Assembly (NCBI GenBank): GCA_951394045.1
Contig: OX595987.1
Span: 186,001-250,000, forward strand
From: Nitzschia sp. DOCU1
Taxonomy: Eukaryota; Bacillariophyta; Bacillariophyceae; Bacillariales; Bacillariaceae
Length of the DNA: 64,000 nt
Direction of reading: 5' to 3'
In this document: one piece after another, positions 17,538 to 22,793 of the stretch
Numbering within the stretch: position 1 is the first letter of the stretch
Layout of the letters: the number at the start of each line of letters is the position of its first letter
Program-made: the position numbers and the translations under genes
Notes under the pieces: generated by a model
Database searches by the model: none
What the model was told of the DNA's origin: nothing
Seen by the model: only the letters and a program-made list of their open reading frames with translations

Positions 17538-18178
17538 CATGACGTGTCCTATCATTGGGAGAATGCTGGTTTCCGCGGGTTTACTTGTTATCTTAGCAAA
17601 CTAATAGCAACTGTAGCAATTTCTATGCTATAGTTTATTTACTACCAGTAGTTGCCGAGGCCACCACTGCAAGTAAAGTAGTTCGAGCAACAACCGCTTC
17701 CAATTGCGCTTTCAACGGATACCCTGCTCAAAGCCGAACGTGTCATTGCCAACAAAAAGTAACCATCGATCGATTTTCTGGTGTGTTCATACGGTAACTG
17801 GTAGGACATGGACTGTCGCAATATCCGTACCTGGCATGGATGACACCTTGTGCTGCACAATAATACTTTAGAATATCGAAGTAATACTGCAGCAGAATTT
17901 TTGACACTCGCCGGAGAAGGAAATCGTGGGCTTCTCATTCATTCCTCCCAATCTCGCGAACAAATATCTACCGCTACTCGCGGCACCACAGAAGACGTTG
18001 AAGATAGGACTCTATGGGAGTAAGAGCAAACAACTCTTACCATAGAGTTTGATCCTGCTGATACCTTACCAATACTTCATTGTAGCAATAAGTCTACTAC
18101 TAGAGTAGGTTTCGCTCTCTCTCCAAATCTACCTACTTTTAGGACGAACTACCGGTACCCTGTTTACTTAACATAATT
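17538..18178. other. Intergenic spacer with a long hairpin
   Basis: No gene is supported. At 18009-18048 a near-perfect hairpin is present: ACTCTATGG plus GTAAGAG pairs with CTCTTAC plus CATAGAGT around a CAAACAA loop, with a two-base bulge. It lies about 130 bp left of the first CTTGCCA motif of the neighbouring putative element. Confidence 0.5.
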
Positions 18179-18460
18179 TTTGCCAAGCGCTTAACAGACC
18201 ATTCGGCCACCCTTGCCAAGAACACATAGGGTTCTTGCCAAGTACTTATCAACACGGCCAGATTCTTGCCAGGAAGCACTTATGGAATATTCCTTTTTTC
18301 CTTCCCTGAAATCTTGTTGTGTGTTGCCGGCAGCTCCACAAGACTGCCTCATTCACTACCCATCAATCTAGCACCCACAATACCAAGCTACATTTGCACA
18401 CAATACCATTTCACAAGAAAGCCTCCTCACCTTTCTCACCTCTCTTGTTTCGTCTCCCTC

Positions 18461-19209
18461 ATGGCACGCAGCCCTCGCCAACACAACAACCATGGAGCCA
18501 TTCAAAGGCAAAGACAGCATTCTTCCAGCCAATTCAAATGGTCAACAGAATGGCGTAGCCCCCATCTGGTCATGTTTCTATCCCATGTAAAGGACGGTAT
18601 CACAGCTGCCATGTCAAGCCACGGGCTTCAGCTTTCCCCGACTGATGCTGCATGGCTCCAGGACCATCAGGGTCATTTCATGAGTTTCCTACCTTGGACC
18701 ACCAGGGAAGTCCAAGATGCATATTCTTCCTATCTACGCCAGCAGCAGCTTCCCCGGTCGGAGGACAGCAAGGCTGCTTTCATCAACCACTACATGTTGT
18801 CCAAGCACACCATCATCGACAGGTCCCCACGCATTGCCGCCAGTAAAGCTGACAGCTATCACTCCAACTGTGAGAAATTCCTTAGAAAATTTTGGTTTTT
18901 CTTGGCATTTGTGGGTGACTACACCAGCATGATTCTTCTTTTAAGGCACCCCCCAGGCAACGGACACAGTCCCAGCATGTCGGTAAGGTCAATTCATGCA
19001 TTTGTGAACCATAAATTCCTCCCATAGGAAAAGATCCTCTAATCCAAAAACGACACATACCCCAAGCCTTCCCTCACTAACCTGGAGGCAACCATGCAAA
19101 AACATTGTGAAATTTTGGAGTATAGGCCACGCCAGGGCCAAAAAGGATGCCAACAAGCGGTAGAGTGCGTGTTGACTCGTCGGCACTTGAAAATTTCAAG
19201 GATCCCATA
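18461..19209 (+). pseudogene. Tyrosine-recombinase-like ORF relic (Crypton-like N-terminal domain)
   Basis: The frame starts at ATG 18461 (MARSPRQHNN...) and runs to TAG at 19025-19027. The same frame holds further coding-like sequence beyond it (KPSLTNLEATMQKHCEILEY...), interrupted by one TAA at 19040-19042. The segment around residues 135-180 reads YHSNCEKFLRKFWFFLAFVG, then DYTSM, a PP and HSPSM followed by an IHAFVNHKF-like helix. This resembles the N-terminal core-binding domain of Crypton-type tyrosine recombinases, where a F-W-x-F pattern precedes a P-S-M motif. The catalytic R...H-x-x-R...Y part is not seen. A splice from GTAAGG near 18981 to an AG near 19073 would remove both stops, so an intact two-exon gene is possible. 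The assignment is tentative. Confidence 0.35.
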
Positions 19210-19391
19210 GGAAAAGATCCTCTAATCCAAAAACGACACATACCCCAAGCCTTCCCTCACTAACCTGGAGGCAACCATGCAAAAACATTGTGAAATTTTG
19301 GAGTATAGGCAACGCCAGGGCCAAAAAGGATGCCAACAAGTAGTAGTGCCGGTGTGCAGGTGTGCGCTTCCAGAAATTTTCAAGATCCCAT
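19021..19391. repeat. 183-bp tandem duplication inside the element
   Basis: The block starting CCCATAGGAAAAGATCC at 19021 is repeated from 19204 with about 80-90% identity, diverging toward the end (after GGATGCCAACAAG). The period of 183 bp is a multiple of three, so the upstream reading frame is kept, including the shared TAA. Confidence 0.88.
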
Positions 19392-19435
19392 GGCAGAAGA
19401 TCTACTAAGCCCGTGGGACACAAGCCCAGTGGGTT

Positions 19436-19979
19436 ATTGTCATCACAATACCCAAATGCCTGCTAAAATGCGTAGAGTCTACAGGGAATTAAAGTACTGC
19501 AGCAATGAATATTGTCCCCACAATATCCAACCTGCGTCAGCTAATATTGTAACAACAATACCCAAATGCCTGCTAAAATGCGTGGAGTCTACAGGGAATT
19601 AAAGTACTGCAGCAATGAGTATTGTCCCCACAATATCCAACCTGCGTCAGCTAATATTGTAACAACAATACCAAAATGCCTGCTAAAATGCGTGGAGTCT
19701 ACAGGGAATTAAAGTACTTTAGCAACGAGTATTGTCCCCTATTGTCCCCACAATATCCAAAATGCGTAGACTCTACAGGAAATTAAAGTACTGCAGTAAC
19801 GAATATTGTCCGCACAATATCCAATCTGCTCGAGCTAATATTGTGATTACAATATCAGGGTCATGCATTGTTACATTGTAGGCACAATATTAGTTGGTCT
19901 GTGGTATTCCGTCCTGCTGAAGGTGTTGGTATTGTCCCCACAATACCCATGCTGGGTAATTGATTATTGTGAGTATAAT
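19436..19979. repeat. Left array of palindrome ATTGT-N4-ACAAT
   Basis: Ten perfect palindromes, each with exactly four spacer bases, lie at 19436, 19511, 19546, 19621, 19656, 19741, 19805, 19840, 19875 and 19931. An imperfect one (ATTGT-GAGT-ATAAT) is at 19966. Most extend to AATATTGT...ACAATATC. The commonest spacer is CCCC; AACA, CATC, CCGC, GATT and AGGC also occur. The copies sit on a larger unit of about 110-120 bp. The fixed spacing with variable spacers looks like a dimer-binding site, for example for a transposase or repressor. Confidence 0.9.
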
Positions 19980-20086
19980 ACTGAGGTGGTAGAGGATACT
20001 ATTAAAGCTCTGCAGTATCTAATCTAATCTAATCTTGCTTCTATAATTTGACTCTTATGTAATCTTATTTTGTGTCATGTACTAAC

Positions 20087-21956
20087 CTAGGTGGCCTTAC
20101 GTTTCTTGTTGCTTTCTTGTTTCTTGCTGCCTTCCTTTTTCTCCATCTTTTTATAATCTTTCTCTGCCATCTCTGAATGTTTGAGCTTCTCAAACATTTG
20201 GCCGGTTCCCATTGCAACCATCTTGGCAAGGGTTTCTTTGGCAAATCCTTTTTTCTGCTTCGACGGTGGATGATGCAACCATTCACGTCGGTAGAATGCC
20301 TCATCGGCCAGCTCTGCCAACCTGTCCACCTCCTTGTTGAAGTATTCAAAGAATACTTCATGGTGTTCTGTCAGTCTAACATGCTGAATTGGCATGTAAA
20401 GAGTGCTGCTACTATCCAAGCCGATAGTCCCTTGCTTCCTGGTGTGGTAGGTAGAATCAATGTAGGCATGGATCCCTACTCTCCAGTCTTGTCCACCCGA
20501 GCCAACCTAGTGCCCGGAAGCATCGGCGCAAGTGGCGGTCAACTGGGATTCCATGGTTCCTCCCTGTCACAGCAGCCAAGATGAGAGAGGCCGACTTGAG
20601 ATGGAATCCATAGAAACGACACATTTCGGCGGGTGTCAAAGGCAGGCGGTCGTTCTTGAGAATCTGCTTCAGCATTGGTACTACAAAGTAGGCATTGCTG
20701 GCAGCCTTGGAAGCCCGGGCACAAATTGAAGCATACTCTTCAATGGAGATGGAAGCCCAGTCCTTGAAAGTAAAGTTGCCATAAGTGGGCGACCTGAAAA
20801 CAGCTCCCCAGAGAAGTACAACAACCTTGTCTGCCACTCCAGCTGCACCCTTGATGAGACAGACGGCTTGGGCAAACCGTGTCCAACATCCAGAACATTT
20901 CCCACAGCCCTTGTAGGGTTTGCCAGGATTACTCATATCACAGAATGCTGTGAAAGCACTGAGCCATTGGGACCGAACACTGGTGATTTGATGTTGTTTA
21001 TCAAGTTCCGAGGAGAGCTTCCTTAGGCTTGCAAGTTCGGCTTCAACTTGGGCTTTCTTGGCCTCTGTGGCCCTGTCCATTTCATAGCGATACCAATCCT
21101 GCGATTGGTATATAGTTGAGCCAATCGGCCACTGGTTGGGATCAAGTTCCTTTGTAACATCTTCAAGGGTGCGATTGTAACAAGTTGCTCCAAAATTTTT
21201 CTCCCTTTCCAGCATTTTCTCGGGGCTAAAGTCTCCTGTCGCCTGCAATGCAAGGTATCTTTTGGTCTGGGGGGATGCCTGTTCATGGACGTAGACACGG
21301 ACCATTTTCCCAATCTGGAAGCAGTGTTTGCTAAGAGCAGTGGTTTGCTGGTTGTTGGTTGTCAAGGCATGTACTTTGTTTTGCTCGGGTCTTGGGTATT
21401 CCCAGAGATTCTTGGCCGGTGCTTGCTTTTTTGAAGCATGTTTCTGGGAATCAACTGCTGGATTGGCAATTGAGCCATCCAATGTTAGCTGCCGTAGTTG
21501 TCGCCTGGATTTGGAGTAACTCTTCTTTTTGGGGGTGTTTTTTGATTGTTGACTGGCTGCGACTGCTGTAAGGGGTGGGGCTTTGGGAGGTGTGGGTCCG
21601 AGAAGAAGATCAGATTCAGGCTTGAGGTCTGGTGCTGGTCTGAGTTGATTGGCTCTCCTCCGGAACTTTTGGTAGACAGAGGATAAGAGCTGAAACCAAA
21701 TTTTATGAGCAATTTTGTTGGGTATAATTTCTCCTTTGATGTTTGTCGGACGGAGATCGAGGCCCCATGACTGGAATACCTTCCATATTTCAAACAAGAG
21801 AGATTGCCGTTTGGTTCGCCTTTCTGCATGGGAGATCATGAGAGCTGTCTTAGCCAGCTCATTCAAAAGATCAGTTCTATGGAGGAGCAATGATTCAAAG
21901 GCTTCCAGGGTTGGGGAACCCTTCCGCAGTGCAAGGGTGGGTGGGTCGATCAACAT
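20087..21956 (-). CDS. HhH-GPD (endonuclease III-like) ORF of the putative element, frameshifted near its 3' end
   Basis: The ATG is at 21954-21956. The first frame encodes 499 aa (to 20457); the C-terminal part continues in another frame to 20087. A one-base shift near 20500 would join ...FRALGW to ...QDWRVGIHAYID... and the basic tail ending NKKRKAT. Residues 1-340 are unrecognised and charged. A Cys cluster CGKCSGC plus a fourth Cys lies at about 351-366. About residues 410-485 match the helix-hairpin-helix/GPD core of Nth/MutY glycosylases: FYGFHLKSASLILAAV in place of LPGVGRKTANVVL, then GIPVDRHLRRCF in place of AVDTHIFRVC. Lys454 and Asp473 align with the catalytic Lys and Asp, at nearly the same spacing. 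The C-terminal iron-sulphur cysteines of Nth are not seen. A base-excision or strand-nicking role is inference. The frameshift may be real decay or a missed tiny intron. Confidence 0.6.
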
Positions 21957-22061
21957 GGTAATATTGTGAGAGGAGTGTTGTTGTTACAATACAAATCCGA
22001 AATTTGAAAAACGACTGTTACCAGCCCTACAGGTTCTACGTATTTTAGCAGGCAGAATAAC

Positions 22062-22257
22062 ATTGTGCCTACAATATCGTTGGAATGATTTTTATGTACC
22101 GCCCTACAGGTTCTACGTACTTTAGCAGGCAGAATAACATTGTGCCTACAATATTGTTGGAAACGACAAGCATATTGTGCCTACAATATTGTTCGAAACG
22201 ACATGAATATTGTGCATACAATATCAGTGGCAATAGAGTGGATATTGTGCATACAAT
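22062..22257. repeat. Right array of palindrome ATTGT-N4-ACAAT (inverted relative to left array)
   Basis: Five perfect copies lie at 22062, 22139, 22174, 22209 and 22244, with spacers GCCT (three) and GCAT (two). Two carry the flank CCCTACAGGTTCTACGTA...TTTAGCAGGCAGAATAAC. The reverse complement of this flank (TGCCTGCTAAAATACGTAGA) matches the left-array unit TGCCTGCTAAAATGCGTAGA. The array begins about 105 bp upstream of the HhH-GPD ORF start, so it could also control that gene. Confidence 0.9.
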
Positions 22258-22415
22258 ATTGTTAAAAGGGGAGGGGGGGGGTTGTCGATTGACCATCATT
22301 TCCTGAGGGTCTTGTAAGGGTCTTGTAACACGACTTCTTCGAAATTTGGGGGTTGGCAAAGTTTGGCAAGGATGCCGACGATTCTTGCCAAACTGAGGGG
22401 GTCTGGCAAGATTGC

Positions 22416-22793
22416 CTGGTACATTTCTACATACGTGGGTTCCGTCTACCACTAGTAGAGGGTTTGTTTACTACGTAGACGCTGAAGTATTTCCGGTCCT
22501 AGTGGGCGCTACTGCTGCCATTGGCGCGGCCTACCTGCAGCTCCAACTACAATGCTGCTCTTGACCAGTTTCCAATCTGCTACTAGAGTGACTACTATTT
22601 CGCTACTTCTTCACAGGTAGCTACCGGTACTATCTTTCGTTGTCGAGCCGGATTAGCAGCACGTGCGCAAAACCAATCCCTGATGGTCAACACTCAAGGT
22701 CCTTGCTTTGGGGTGTCGTCGTCAACCATACTAATTGTTGTTGGTTGGGTGTTCCCGGCCGTTGTGATAGAATCAGCGGCGAGTGCTGCCATC
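22416..22793. other. Intergenic spacer
   Basis: About 380 bp between the putative element and the decayed membrane-protein copy. No gene, RNA or repeat is supported. Confidence 0.5.

Follow-up and report, generated by a model that had tools for sequence, protein, structure and literature searches.

We found a deleted copy of a mobile element in a 64,000-nucleotide stretch of the Nitzschia sp. DOCU1 genome (the window). The copy holds a leftward open reading frame (ORF) for a protein with a helix-hairpin-helix/GPD (HhH-GPD) core of the base-excision type, the remnant of a tyrosine recombinase (YR) gene and two arrays of the palindrome ATTGT-N4-ACAAT. There are a total of 15 perfect palindromes in the window, 10 at positions 19436-19944 and 5 at 22062-22257, and this recount agrees with an earlier note on this DNA that placed ten to the left and five to the right of the ORF. 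Shuffles of the window yielded 0.10 +/- 0.30 such sites and 0/100 shuffles gave 15. Two sites with one mismatch (n = 2, at 19966 and 21977) extend the arrays, and the spacing of palindromes within the arrays is frequently exactly 35 bp. The 30-nt unit TGCCTGCTAAAATGCGTAGAGTCTACAGGG is inverted across the ORF, as had been noticed before, with opposite-side copies that are 80-83% complementary over 30 nt, a figure that belongs to a sister copy (L005) and not to the window. The earlier note had drawn the feature at 19430..22265; the locus is real and the element is wider (Table 1).

Two other long copies of the element are present in the same genome (G000; 52 Mb, 63 contigs) on contigs C4 (L022) and C10 (L023); C14 has at least one short remnant. 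All copy counts reported here are lower bounds because the genome searches scored the best candidates only. By the same end marks the C4 copy is 9359 bp long, the C10 copy 7454 bp and the window copy 4349 bp. The C4 copy contains four ORFs of at least 180 aa that begin with ATG, namely the 782-aa YR (rightward), a 621-aa protein (leftward), a 576-aa protein (leftward) and a 206-aa antisense ORF, along with three palindrome arrays (n = 3), which sit 5' of each cargo gene and in the interval that separates the recombinase from the cargo. The 576-aa protein is the full-length version of the HhH-GPD protein. The 621-aa protein is a dioxygenase-like second cargo that is mostly missing from the window and goes beyond the earlier reading. 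In the window copy, a first deletion (junction near 19020) has removed most of the recombinase gene, and a second, at 20498, has taken away the end of the 576-aa gene together with array 2 and all but the 3' part of the 621-aa gene. The window copy is non-autonomous: it derives from a Crypton-like DNA element of 9.4 kb by two internal deletions. Its recombinase remnant is 97% identical to residues 1-193 of the C4 YR with one internal stop, and its dioxygenase-like remnant retains R491, with H417, D419 and H479 gone. In the C10 copy, too, a deletion joins the 621-aa and 576-aa genes; arrays 1 and 3 are present in 3/3 copies and array 2 is missing from both deleted copies. The full element has 7.6 copies of the 183-bp tandem repeat, at L022:3063-4461, between the recombinase and array 1.

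Comparison of these copies, which the earlier note had suggested collecting, defined the ends of the element in all three. The left junction is CTAC-N4-GTAGG in 3/3 copies and the right junction is CTACCACT[A/G]GTAG. GTAG is repeated at both junctions in 3/3 copies, and the inverted array units sit inside the ends. These junctions, read from occupied alleles, fit a putative CTAC-N4-GTAG target.

Table 1. Features of the element copy in the window.
Feature	Positions	Strand	Basis or remark
Whole Crypton-like element, deleted copy	18105..22453		Three-way comparison of the window, C4 and C10 copies; homology continues to 22458
Tyrosine recombinase remnant	18461..19027	+	188 codons, starting at ATG, crossing the deletion junction near 19020 and ending at a stop
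183-bp tandem repeat, ~2 copies	19020..19411	+	BLAST, TRF
Array 1	19436..19979		10 perfect and 1 one-mismatch ATTGT-N4-ACAAT palindromes
Dioxygenase-like gene, 3' remnant	20087..20498	-	Last ~136 codons and stop; tblastn to C3:206090-206512, 96%
HhH-GPD ORF, 499 aa	20457..21956	-	Residues 1 to ~486 authentic
Asp473 codon GAC	20538..20540	-	
Lys454 codon AAG	20595..20597	-	
Array 3	21977..22257		5 perfect and 1 one-mismatch palindromes; directly 5' of the HhH-GPD ORF

The residues R338, K374, H449, R452, H475 and Y484 of the 782-aa YR are invariant in 8/8 aligned recombinases (n = 8: the C4 YR, 5/7 of its database relatives and 2 families of the same genome). R-K-H-R-H/W-Y is the catalytic residue set of tyrosine recombinases. 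One of the seven database relatives is from the diatom Nitzschia inconspicua, and in its own genome the YR has 18 matches, the distant ones 29-38% identical. A Pfam search of the YR matched no domain, including DUF3504 and GCR1_C, and neither the YR nor the HhH-GPD protein has relatives in IMG/VR. No reverse transcriptase or DDE transposase was found in the C4 element, where the YR, the dioxygenase candidate and the HhH-GPD protein were searched against Pfam and the 206-aa antisense ORF was not. Because the element encodes a YR and neither of these other enzymes was found, we class it as Crypton-like, a label given by gene content. The earlier note had raised, as one possibility, a mobile element that uses glycosylase or lyase-like nicking at its palindromes. 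Nicking by the glycosylase as the engine of movement is not supported: the fullest copy encodes its own YR with an intact catalytic set, and the ends are CTAC/GTAG and not the palindromes. The HhH-GPD protein was rejected as the transposase since the element encodes a YR.

The element shares with Cryptons (PMC3212892) a stramenopile range and a YR as the sole mobility protein found, and the GTAG repeated at its two junctions would fit the short direct repeats at Crypton ends; CryptonS elements occur in oomycetes and Phaeodactylum (PMC3212892). Some Cryptons there carry an extra gene, a C48 peptidase (PMC3212892), and the present element also carries cargo genes. CryptonS elements are described as mostly sharing TATGG termini (PMC3212892), whereas the present element has CTAC/GTAG junctions. 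It further differs in that no Pfam domain was found in its YR, in its HhH-GPD and dioxygenase-candidate cargo, and in its palindrome arrays.

We identified two further Crypton-like families in the genome, L027+L053 (C1:2671380-2681500) and L034+L054 (C5:2791492-2800500), in which the YR is rightward and a large cargo is leftward. The leftward cargo is 1311 aa in the C5 family and 791+524 aa in the C1 family, and an H-x-D motif is present (LHKDELND in C5). The C1 family has seven near-identical 181-bp repeats with one GCTCGT-N4-ACGAGC palindrome each, which says little.

A PDB search with the 576-aa protein identified NTHL1 (residues 437-522, E = 6.9e-7) and EndoIII (E = 2.3e-5), and the NCBIfam model nth matched with E = 0.0014. 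Lys454 and Asp473 of the full-length protein align with the Lys and Asp that are the catalytic residues of NTHL1 and EndoIII, and the alignment between them is ungapped in NTHL1. The HhH motif with Lys and Asp that had been read from the window ORF is confirmed in the alignment of its full-length sister. As in Nth and NTHL1, there is an HhH with a Lys, an Asp 19 residues further, and subsequent helices that align. The protein differs from both in the missing Fe-S cysteines, in an N-terminal part that is long and contains a C-x2-C-x2-C knuckle, and in being encoded by a mobile element. The knuckle is CGKCSGC at residues 351-357, immediately N-terminal to the HhH-GPD core; it could be half of a CXXC-type zinc finger. 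The first residues of the window ORF are identical to the C4 protein at 483/486 positions and the sequence is out of frame thereafter, the deletion at 20498 having removed the C-terminal ~90 of 576 residues. What the earlier note had taken as one long leftward ORF is a real protein to about residue 486; as a full-length protein it was rejected, its tail being an out-of-frame read into the end of the dioxygenase-like gene. Of the 7998 candidates scored, one alone (P0001) proved to be a full-length relative. It is 84% identical to the C4 protein, with residues 346-530 (core and knuckle) ~95% identical and residues 106-190 73% identical. The broader claim of a mobile element with an HhH-GPD-type base-excision protein beside palindrome arrays is supported.

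The 621-aa protein contains the signature H-x-D (H417, D419), H479 and R491, at distances of 60 and 12 residues. This H-x-D...H...R spacing suits double-stranded beta-helix 2-oxoglutarate/Fe(II) (2OG/Fe(II)) dioxygenases. A 361-aa ORF on C1 and C13 of the same genome is 31-32% identical to the 621-aa protein and all four residues are invariant in it, in a comparison of two families only. The two agree in about one third of all aligned columns, hence the retention of four residues is no proof, and the assignment as a candidate 2OG/Fe(II) dioxygenase is suggestive, at the level of the motif. No relative was found in IMG/VR or in GTDB genome contigs. The Tet_JBP model PF12851 has no match in the C4 protein and none genome-wide, the latter a weak result as the control likewise matched nowhere. 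The 361-aa ORF (L045, L052; G000:C1:4436273, C13:130768) resides within a stretch of 2.5 kb with 99.96% identity between two contigs, so the ORF may itself be mobile. The stretches read around L045 and L052 contain no perfect ATTGT palindrome.

The dN/dS values between the C4 and C10 copies are 0.19 for the YR (782 codons), 0.13 for the dioxygenase candidate (378 codons, as the C10 gene is without its 5' part) and 0.31 for the HhH gene (398 codons, as the C10 gene is truncated). These values, which come from one copy pair (two pairs for the HhH gene), indicate purifying selection on the recombinase and both cargo genes. The dS of the same two copies is uneven (0.07 for the YR, 0.11 for the dioxygenase gene and 0.31 for the HhH gene), indicating a mosaic history. 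In array 3 the palindrome arms of the C4 and C10 copies differ at 0/60 positions and the other positions at 56/251 (Fisher P = 2.5e-6, 41 gap columns excluded), with the differences falling in linkers (50/227) and spacers (6/24). When the perfect sites alone are marked, 0/50 arm positions differ versus 56/261 others.

The single palindrome ATTGT-N4-ACAAT occurs at 203 forward sites in the whole genome, compared with 19 in a backward-read control. We scanned for palindrome pairs with gaps of 0-30 and 36-66 bases (31-35 were not scanned) and found clusters at ten loci: the three element copies and seven piggyBac or piggyBac-flanked places. The backward-read control gave 0. The arrays lie in noncoding DNA and are concentrated in this element family. 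The earlier description of arrays flanking the ORF holds within the window, and the arrays are not tied to the ORF, as the seven other loci have arrays without it. Unrelated loci with arrays and no ORF had been named beforehand as what would refute the earlier reading; we found seven, and they appear to be piggyBac captures of array pieces.

Four of the seven loci (C2, C3 twice, C10) are piggyBac elements of one subfamily (piggyBac-A), with TTAA and common terminal repeats in 4/4. In one of them (L008) a 936-aa protein matches DDE_Tnp_1_7 (E = 5.6e-48). This first array recipient is thus piggyBac by its DDE_Tnp_1_7 domain and TTAA ends, and it differs from piggyBac in carrying a piece of Crypton array between two converging gene ends. 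The piece in the four copies is ~232 bp, with two 110-bp units that are 94-96% identical to array 1, and the array-bearing copies are 99.9-100% identical across long common blocks (99% in one). Array-less relatives were picked by adjacency of both sides in the hit table, which gave 7, and 5/5 of those read are without the piece. The capture junction can be located within a few bases. The other three loci (piggyBac-B; C4:196 kb, C4:3332 kb and C13:1220 kb) contain 3, 4 and 3 palindromes, respectively, in 68-69-bp units ~79% like array 3. The arrays at C4:196 kb and C13:1220 kb adjoin piggyBac sequence ~85% like the first subfamily, and flanks are common to all three loci; C4:3332 kb is called piggyBac-flanked by its flank matches to the two other B loci alone, with no B transposase read. 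There are 3 array-less piggyBac-B relatives in the hit table, 2 of which were read and lack arrays, and the third leaves room for ~70 bases. The source arrays and the insertion points differ between the subfamilies, which indicates two separate captures, of different array types. A second motif, TGCCTGCTAAA (either strand), is found 6 times in L022, 3 times in L023, 2 times in the array locus L007, and 4, 4 and 5 times in L055-L057, and therefore travels with the arrays. The uptake of array pieces by piggyBac may mean that the arrays do something useful for jumping genes. The captures fit portable cis elements and are not proof of function.

We consider it possible, at somewhat less than an even chance, that the cargo pair strips host silencing marks, targeted by an array-binding protein, and that piggyBac hijacks the sites; the chemistry, as well as the binding and any benefit to piggyBac, is what we infer from sequence. 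The element would be moved by its recombinase, through site-specific recombination at CTAC-N4-GTAG targets. The silencing mark, most simply 5-methylcytosine, would be oxidised by the dioxygenase, the glycosylase would excise the oxidised base, and repair would then restore cytosine. Thymine DNA glycosylase is an enzyme that removes such oxidised bases. An element-encoded dimeric protein (a cargo protein or the recombinase) would be aimed by the palindromes, with the effect confined to the element, and gene-less elements with kept or stolen arrays, such as the window copy and piggyBac, would be served in trans. The stronger version is a complete oxidise-then-excise demethylation route that is aimed at its own element by palindromic address arrays, which an unrelated superfamily has twice stolen for demethylation in trans. 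This we regard as doubtful, with perhaps a third of our belief. Six genome loci match C5-methyltransferase above the cut-off, five of them strongly, so host DNA methylation would be available as a thing to escape.

The VANDAL transposons are Mutator-like elements. Arabidopsis VANC binds short motifs in noncoding transposon tandem repeats and causes methylation to be lost (PMC5735166, PMC10398659). The VANC/VANDAL system and the present element have in common a family-specific short motif in the noncoding tandem repeats of a transposon (PMC5735166, PMC10398659). They differ in that the term glycosylase is absent from PMC10398659, the one of the two papers searched for it, and in that the present motif is palindromic. 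In Phaeodactylum, loss of DNMT5a is reported to come with lost DNA methylation and with young transposable elements being overexpressed (PMC9998398).

In fungi, DNA transposons carry TET/JBP dioxygenases that are thought to lift silencing, and the gene has passed among transposon lineages (PMC12730594). The present element is similarly a DNA transposon with a dioxygenase, here a candidate 2OG/Fe enzyme by its motifs; the role in lifting methylation is presumed in those fungi (PMC12730594). The fungal transposons are DDE-transposase elements or Helitrons (PMC12730594), whereas the present element encodes a YR and its candidate has no Tet_JBP match. A term search of that paper found neither a glycosylase in transposons nor a Crypton (PMC12730594). 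What crosses between transposon lineages also differs: in fungi, by the same account, it is the TET/JBP gene, and here it is the cis array. Among the open-access papers listed, 20 of 460 in one search, we found none whose listing describes a transposon with a dioxygenase and a base-excision glycosylase, HhH-GPD in transposons, or a Crypton with such cargo. Transposon-borne anti-silencing is already known, and we rate the two-enzyme cargo and the passage of arrays between superfamilies as the new parts. If the anti-silencing reading is true, the element would provide a self-contained, sequence-addressed DNA demethylation module open to test and a path to locus-specific demethylation tools. The array-bearing and array-less piggyBac sisters in one genome would then be a natural experiment on silencing escape driving transposon spread.

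Several observations weigh against the anti-silencing reading. On the protein side, Pfam HhH-GPD (PF00730) scored 14.0 and 16.3 bits, under the gathering score of 26.2. The Fe-S cluster of Nth has the pattern Cys-x6-Cys-x2-Cys-x5-Cys, and a search for these cysteines found a single Cys (479) after Asp473. AlphaFold models were unusable for the HhH-GPD protein (mean pLDDT 38.7, four sequences) and for the 621-aa protein (mean pLDDT 29.7). Pfam, NCBIfam, PHROG and PDB gave no credible match to the 621-aa protein (PDB weak, implausible ones only), and there was no relative among the 7995 protein-database candidates scored. The full-length relative P0001 matches what survives of the C10 version at 403/404 positions; it thus belongs to one lineage with that copy, its gene being intact, and gives no independent support. 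All genes are intact in only 1/3 copies, and the dN/dS between the C4 and window HhH genes is 0.44, on five changes. The constancy of the arms holds for array 3 alone: in array 1 of the C4 and C10 copies, 16/87 arm, 52/288 linker and 12/36 spacer positions differ (204 gap columns), in an alignment that loses register, the two copies having different numbers of repeats, and between the C4 and window copies 1/100 arm bases of array 1 differs. With regard to the palindromes elsewhere, ~72/203 lie inside the ten array loci and ~131 outside, where ~81 were expected from the scaled window shuffle. The ATTGT array is absent from the stretches read of the C1 and C5 Crypton-like families, whose cargo is different. 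The array-bearing piggyBac copies could be carrying hitch-hiking filler.

We weighed four other explanations against these data. The palindromes may be operators through which an element-encoded transcriptional regulator, or the recombinase, controls the cargo genes and transposition, with the cargo serving DNA repair, for example healing excision damage. The arrays directly 5' of both cargo genes, a 5-bp-arm palindrome that suits a dimeric regulator, the frequent 35-bp spacing, and the closeness of the HhH-GPD protein to the classical repair enzymes NTHL1 and EndoIII all favor such self-regulation. We consider it unlikely as a full account, since alone it leaves unexplained both the uptake of arrays by two piggyBac lineages and a dioxygenase-like partner under purifying selection. 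We give the same low probability to binding by a host transcription or replication factor, in which the palindrome acts as promoter or enhancer for any mobile element and the cargo is independent. The excess of single palindromes outside the arrays (~131 vs ~81) agrees with this explanation and the piggyBac captures are equally compatible with an enhancer, but clusters are confined to element and piggyBac settings (control 0, over the gap sizes scanned, 31-35 bases excluded) and the L008 array, between converging gene ends, is in no promoter position.

The retention of arrays 1 and 3 and the loss of array 2 in both deleted copies suggest that the arrays could be accessory sites of recombination, bound by the YR or used in circle formation in the manner of phage-integrase arm sites. 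Only two deleted copies (n = 2) bear on this pattern, and piggyBac, whose movement relies on a DDE transposase acting at TTAA ends, should need no such sites; we consider the explanation improbable. Slightly less probable still is the absence of any function, with unstable tandem repeats copied into piggyBac through error-prone gap repair and the constancy of array 3 due to chance or recent homogenisation. Filler and short common letters at the capture junctions (by eye) are as expected for such repair, tandem repeats copy easily, and the arms of array 1 are not constant as aligned. Arguing against it are the arms of array 3, unchanged while other positions differ by ~22%, the two captures of different array types, and the near identity of the array-bearing piggyBac-A copies at four loci, hence a recent spread.

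 The remnant on C14 (L033, C14:517079-520435) comprises ~690 bp, with the left end and the start of the recombinase, and is 94% identical. The piggyBac locus L008 contains a second gene of 335 aa (L008:4788-5792), which weakly matches the P2X7 C-terminal domain (E = 1.2e-4), slightly under the Pfam cut-off.

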